From NCBI RefSeq assembly GCF_036370855.1, contig NC_088111.1, forward strand, positions 19,937,501 through 20,001,500: a stretch of 64,000 bases of DNA. Reading direction: 5' to 3'. Below are positions 1 to 40,126 of this stretch, piece after piece. The notes under the pieces are model-generated. The model was not told the origin of the DNA. It was given only the letters and a program-made list of their open reading frames with translations, and made no database searches. Each line of letters opens with the position of its first letter. Position 1 is the stretch's first letter. Both the position numbers and the translations under genes were made by a program. The DNA comes from Dromaius novaehollandiae. Taxonomy: Eukaryota; Chordata; Aves; Casuariiformes; Dromaiidae.

Positions 1-40126
<40,126 letters not shown>

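Follow-up and report, generated by a model that had tools for sequence, protein, structure and literature searches.

We show here that a 24-nt segment in the 5' part of MAPK8IP3 (JIP3), which lies on the minus strand of the 64,000-nt stretch of Dromaius novaehollandiae DNA analyzed in this study (the window), is very likely a conserved cassette microexon of the vertebrate gene, with neuronal inclusion and a tuning of JNK docking as putative further steps. Through JIP3, JNK signalling is coupled to axonal transport; a conserved microexon touching the JNK-docking motif of this protein would make a concrete link from neuronal splicing to JNK scaffolding. JIP3 is expressed predominantly in neurons (PMC6002436), and variants of MAPK8IP3 have been tied to intellectual disability (PMC12626420). 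The 24-base exon is already known, being annotated in relatives from a fish to mammals; the value of the present analysis is not one of discovery and lies in showing exactly where the exon sits, next to the docking motif and between two other splice choices.

The gene was assigned as the MAPK8IP3 orthologue from a 257-residue query carrying both the insert and the serine of a NAGNAG acceptor (the scored region, 1-258, took in one padding X). The best match was JIP3 of Apus apus, with 99% identity over 100% of the query; this call compares the window product with JIP3 matches, JIP4 not being scored directly against the window. After exon 1, the product also aligns to the JIP3 of PDB 8pr2, which we take to be human and which skips the insert. 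The features are collected in the table.

Features of the JIP3 locus in the window, in the order of transcription
Feature	Positions	Strand	Evidence and remarks
JIP3 exon 1, coding part	39809..40126	minus	read from sequence; protein match to relatives
JIP3 exon 2	15191..15311	minus	read from sequence; PDB 8pr2 alignment
JIP3 exon 3	14353..14423	minus	read from sequence; PDB 8pr2 alignment
JIP3 exon 4, upstream partner of the microexon	13796..13887	minus	PDB 8pr2 homology; ends in phase 2 after ...VPGR
Stretch upstream of the microexon	6454..6500	minus	weak pyrimidine tract; acceptor CACTGCAG; TGC at -43, -37, -34, -5
24-nt cassette microexon (SHRQSWRK)	6430..6453	minus	sequence; phase; same residues in annotated JIP3 isoforms; JSAP1 review
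Donor of the microexon, GTAAATCCT	6421..6429	minus	8.2 bits, good
CAG at the NAGNAG acceptor; inclusion gives one extra Ser	2508..2510	minus	relatives have annotated isoforms of both kinds
Next JIP3 exon (JSAP1 exon 6), with the JNK-docking motif	2366..2507	minus	start is the distal AG of the NAGNAG acceptor; the proximal AG gives 2510
93-nt (31-residue) segment, internal to distal donor	2366..2458	minus	matches the 31-aa segment of JSAP1c/d

Read on the minus strand, positions 6453-6430 are TCATCGCCAGTCATGGAGGAAAAG, 24 nt with AG before and GT after; the sequence leading into them ends in ...TTTGTCACTGCAG, and GTAAATCC follows. The first-pass annotation of this DNA had described the segment as entering and leaving in phase 2, the phase of the exon 4 donor 7.3 kb upstream, and as inserting eight residues. 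Both statements are borne out by our reading. The coding bases sum to 602 at the end of exon 4 (13796), which is phase 2, and the segment, lying between the exons at 13887-13796 and 2507-2366, is phase 2 on either side; splicing it in keeps the frame, creates no stop and adds SHRQSWRK. In size and splice pattern it falls among the vertebrate neural microexons (3-27 nt, frame-preserving, AG/GT).

Both splice sites had been called strong. In bits computed from approximate frequency tables, the donor is good, but the acceptor, at 6.6 bits, is moderate; the acceptors of exons 2, 3 and 4 and of the next exon score 12.0, 5.3, 11.3 and 10.9. How often such a segment arises by chance was estimated from 200 copies of the intron generated with a first-order Markov model: AG-[3-30 nt]-GT segments reaching both microexon scores occur 0.98 times per copy, and those that are also frame-preserving and stop-free 0.31 times. 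The real intron holds two such AG...GT segments, the microexon and an 8-nt one, and the whole window holds four on the minus strand and six on the plus strand. Judged by its splice signals against these intron simulations, the microexon is not beyond chance, and the scores were dropped as proof by themselves. With about 0.3 chance segments per intron, the first-pass annotation could not have known from the splice signals alone that the exon was real. A chance AG...GT segment that is never spliced in, which is what these numbers would allow, is nevertheless ruled out by homology, as annotated JIP3 isoforms from many species have a matching segment at precisely this point; we give this explanation practically no weight. 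Since these residues recur at the corresponding position in annotated relatives, the segment is more than chance and, judged from the sequence, is a genuine, conserved and optional mini-exon of JIP3 that had been read correctly.

The homology evidence came from protein searches. In a search with the insert-bearing query, a choice that favours carriers, 110 of the best 120 of 3868 matches contain the insert and 10 do not; the carriers are birds, crocodile, turtles, squamates and mammals. Within these best 120, the insert reads SHRQSWRK in 65 and SPRQSWRK in 41, while SHHPSWRK, SPRQSWKK, SPRQHWRK and SPRQSWRR occur once each. Annotated JIP3 isoforms have SHRQSWRK in birds, a crocodile, turtles and lizards and SPRQSWRK in mammals. 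Among the matches listed, Antechinus, Trichosurus, Paroedura and Chrysemys have models both with and without the insert. Models named 'isoform X' rest partly on RNA-seq, and predicted isoforms may partly copy one another. Across 26 sequences chosen among the carriers, the insert is identical to that of the window at 190 of 208 positions, compared with 325 of 416 for the preceding 16 residues.

A further JIP3 search, restricted to long proteins by a length filter, gave 34 matches. Four non-amniote vertebrate proteins from it were scored against one JIP3 and one JIP4, and three were closer to JIP3: a moray eel JIP3-like protein carries SQRHSWRN, and the Xenopus and grenadier JIP3-like models (two of the three) are without the insert. 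In the invertebrate JIP3/4 proteins of this search no matching segment was recognized by eye, the pattern used having reached all of the 34 proteins but four, one of which is from a lamprey. All 119 readable junctions among the best 120 of 4057 matches to a JIP4/SPAG9 N-terminus lack the insert, a result of little weight as the query also lacked it. Conservation thus extends over amniotes and one teleost, in line with the earlier proposal of a conserved, frame-preserving JIP3 microexon. No papers mentioning the peptide RQSWRK turned up in a text search.

The window anatomy matches, exon for exon, a review's description of mouse JSAP1, closely enough to equate the microexon with JSAP1 exon 5 at high probability. 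According to the relevant passage of that review, which summarizes Ito et al. 2000, exons 5 and 6 take part in the alternative splicing that yields JSAP1a-d, the JNK-binding region (residues 201-217) lies in exon 6, and the c and d isoforms, which carry a 31-aa segment, bind JNK3 more weakly (PMC7464089). Counting coding exons in the window, the microexon comes fifth, and the sixth holds the docking motif and an internal donor. The optional exon 5, the JNK-binding region in exon 6 and the optional 31-aa segment are thus shared, and the second residue of the insert differs, being His in the window and Pro in the listed mammals. The microexon is very probably the mouse JSAP1 exon 5 published in 2000, an assignment made by setting exon order and the 93-nt segment against the review's account of the anatomy.

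The next exon carries a predicted JNK-docking motif of the JIP1 class, RPNSLNV, which the microexon adjoins. The consensus D-site consists of a basic cluster, a short spacer and a hydrophobic-x-hydrophobic element (PMC2928751), and the window sequence follows this pattern of basic residue(s), spacer and hydrophobic pair. It matches the RPTTLNL contained in pepJIP1 (the JIP1 peptide has RPKRPTTLNLF), and JIP3 203-209 stands on the list of JIP1-class docking motifs in the same paper (PMC4670726). The KERP block named in the first-pass annotation is in fact the start of this motif. Four things had been missed there, namely the motif, the NAGNAG acceptor, the alternative donor for 31 residues and the annotation in relatives. 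The suggestion that the insert adds basic residues after the coiled coil is confirmed, the number of R/K between PGR and the proline of the docking site rising from 4 to 7 on inclusion.

How the microexon could act is suggested by its position. Sequence and homology show that inclusion inserts SHRQSWRK, without a frameshift, into the linker joining the N-terminal coiled coil to the docking motif. Next to the RK-E-R cluster of that motif, the extra basic residues and the Ser-Trp pair could tune JNK docking by changing its surroundings, either electrostatically or through phosphorylation of the Ser before Trp. The insert begins with Ser-Pro in the listed mammals and with Ser-His in sauropsids, so a proline-directed site at the insert is not conserved. 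An effect of the microexon on JNK docking is plausible. It is also conceivable, with a probability that we put somewhat short of even, that the microexon is real and its job is another one, in which linker length, charge or phosphorylation serves a different partner such as a motor, a membrane or 14-3-3. The insert lies just outside the docking core and leaves it unchanged, all eight splice forms that we built having the core intact; in the review's passage, weaker JNK3 binding goes with the 31-aa segment, separating c/d from a/b, and no effect of exon 5 is mentioned (PMC7464089). On the other hand, the insert abuts the basic cluster of the docking site, and its residues vary less between species than those of the preceding linker; both points speak against such a different job.

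That the microexon is regulated in brain and included in neurons via SRRM4 is likewise plausible from the motifs around it. The TGCTGC reported about 30 nt upstream is present, at -37/-34, and a CTTCTT lies at -50. Of the AG sites in the window, 1.1% have four TGC in the 45 nt upstream, and 0.1% have in addition two TGC in the 20 nt downstream; both figures are post hoc. A single TGCATG lies upstream at -90, and the 200 nt scanned downstream hold one YCAY-type site (+99) and lack GCATG. Neuronal factors (SRRM4/SRRM3, acting at UGC beside a weak acceptor) may include the exon in neurons. The exon shares with SRRM4/SRRM3-regulated vertebrate neural microexons its 24 nt, preserved frame, upstream UGC, weak acceptor and location in a neuronal trafficking gene; it differs in a pyrimidine tract that is both weak and interrupted, and the resemblance is one of sequence.

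The presence of the insert in 110 of the best 120 of 3868 matches, from a search that favoured carriers, would also fit an exon that is broadly included and not neuron-specific, with skipping as the regulated or rare form. We consider this unlikely, as JIP3 is itself predominantly neuronal, the 8pr2 construct skips the insert, and a JIP3 microexon belongs to a brain-development set: a 2025 eLife paper has a MAPK8IP3 microexon in its mouse-brain/zebrafish set and lists mapk8ip3 among the zebrafish genes with a microexon deleted, either of which may concern another of the several JIP3 microexons. In C. elegans, the orthologous unc-16/JIP3 has a neuron-type-specific cassette exon, as described in PMC8378409; that exon is 84 nt and not a microexon, and is likened here by gene and not by position.

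At least five other short segments (4, 6, 7, 9 and 11 residues) vary among the JIP3 isoforms of turtles, of marsupials and of one gecko, making the gene rich in alternatives of microexon size. The microexon-sized candidates from this isoform comparison are GEFS, VRDDFF, VSSYLCTEL, (Q)CSSPLQ and an 11-residue one.

Two further splice choices lie in the next exon. At its start, the NAGNAG acceptor adds or omits one serine. At its end, an internal donor, ATG|GTACGT, scores 7.2 bits against -0.7 bits for the weak distal donor, AAG|GTTTTA, and its use removes exactly 93 nt, or 31 residues just after the docking motif; the same 31 residues are missing from some isoforms of Caretta, Lepidochelys and Strigops. 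Whichever of the eight combinations of these choices is taken (microexon, NAGNAG CAG, alternative donor), the reading frame is kept and no stop arises. The serine and the 31-residue segment might act together with the microexon on docking. One could go further and picture the three choices as a combinatorial, eight-state rheostat of neuronal JNK docking conserved in amniotes, in which the basic residues and phosphorylatable Ser-Trp of the microexon would switch the retention of JNK on the JIP3 motor adaptor; we regard this extended proposal as doubtful.

The basic block before the docking motif varies in squamates, where SMKRRP, SVKRRP, RSRP or SLKSRP replaces SRKERP in some models. The lizard and snake models with an altered block keep the microexon and the RPNSLN core, with SHHPSWRK as the microexon sequence of one rattlesnake.

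Within the JIP3 locus, we also observed an inverted repeat at 9793-11047 and 22520-23774, whose 1,255-bp arms align without gaps and differ at 12 positions (99.0% identity). One arm lies in the intron before exon 2 and the other in the intron after exon 4, so that exons 2-4 (284 nt together) are enclosed; the arms presumably include part of a CR1-like element plus flank. The repeat could support back-splicing into a circular RNA or an inversion of exons 2-4, or could be an assembly artefact. A direct repeat of about 179 bp, 80% identical, is found at 59563-59741 and 61492-61666.
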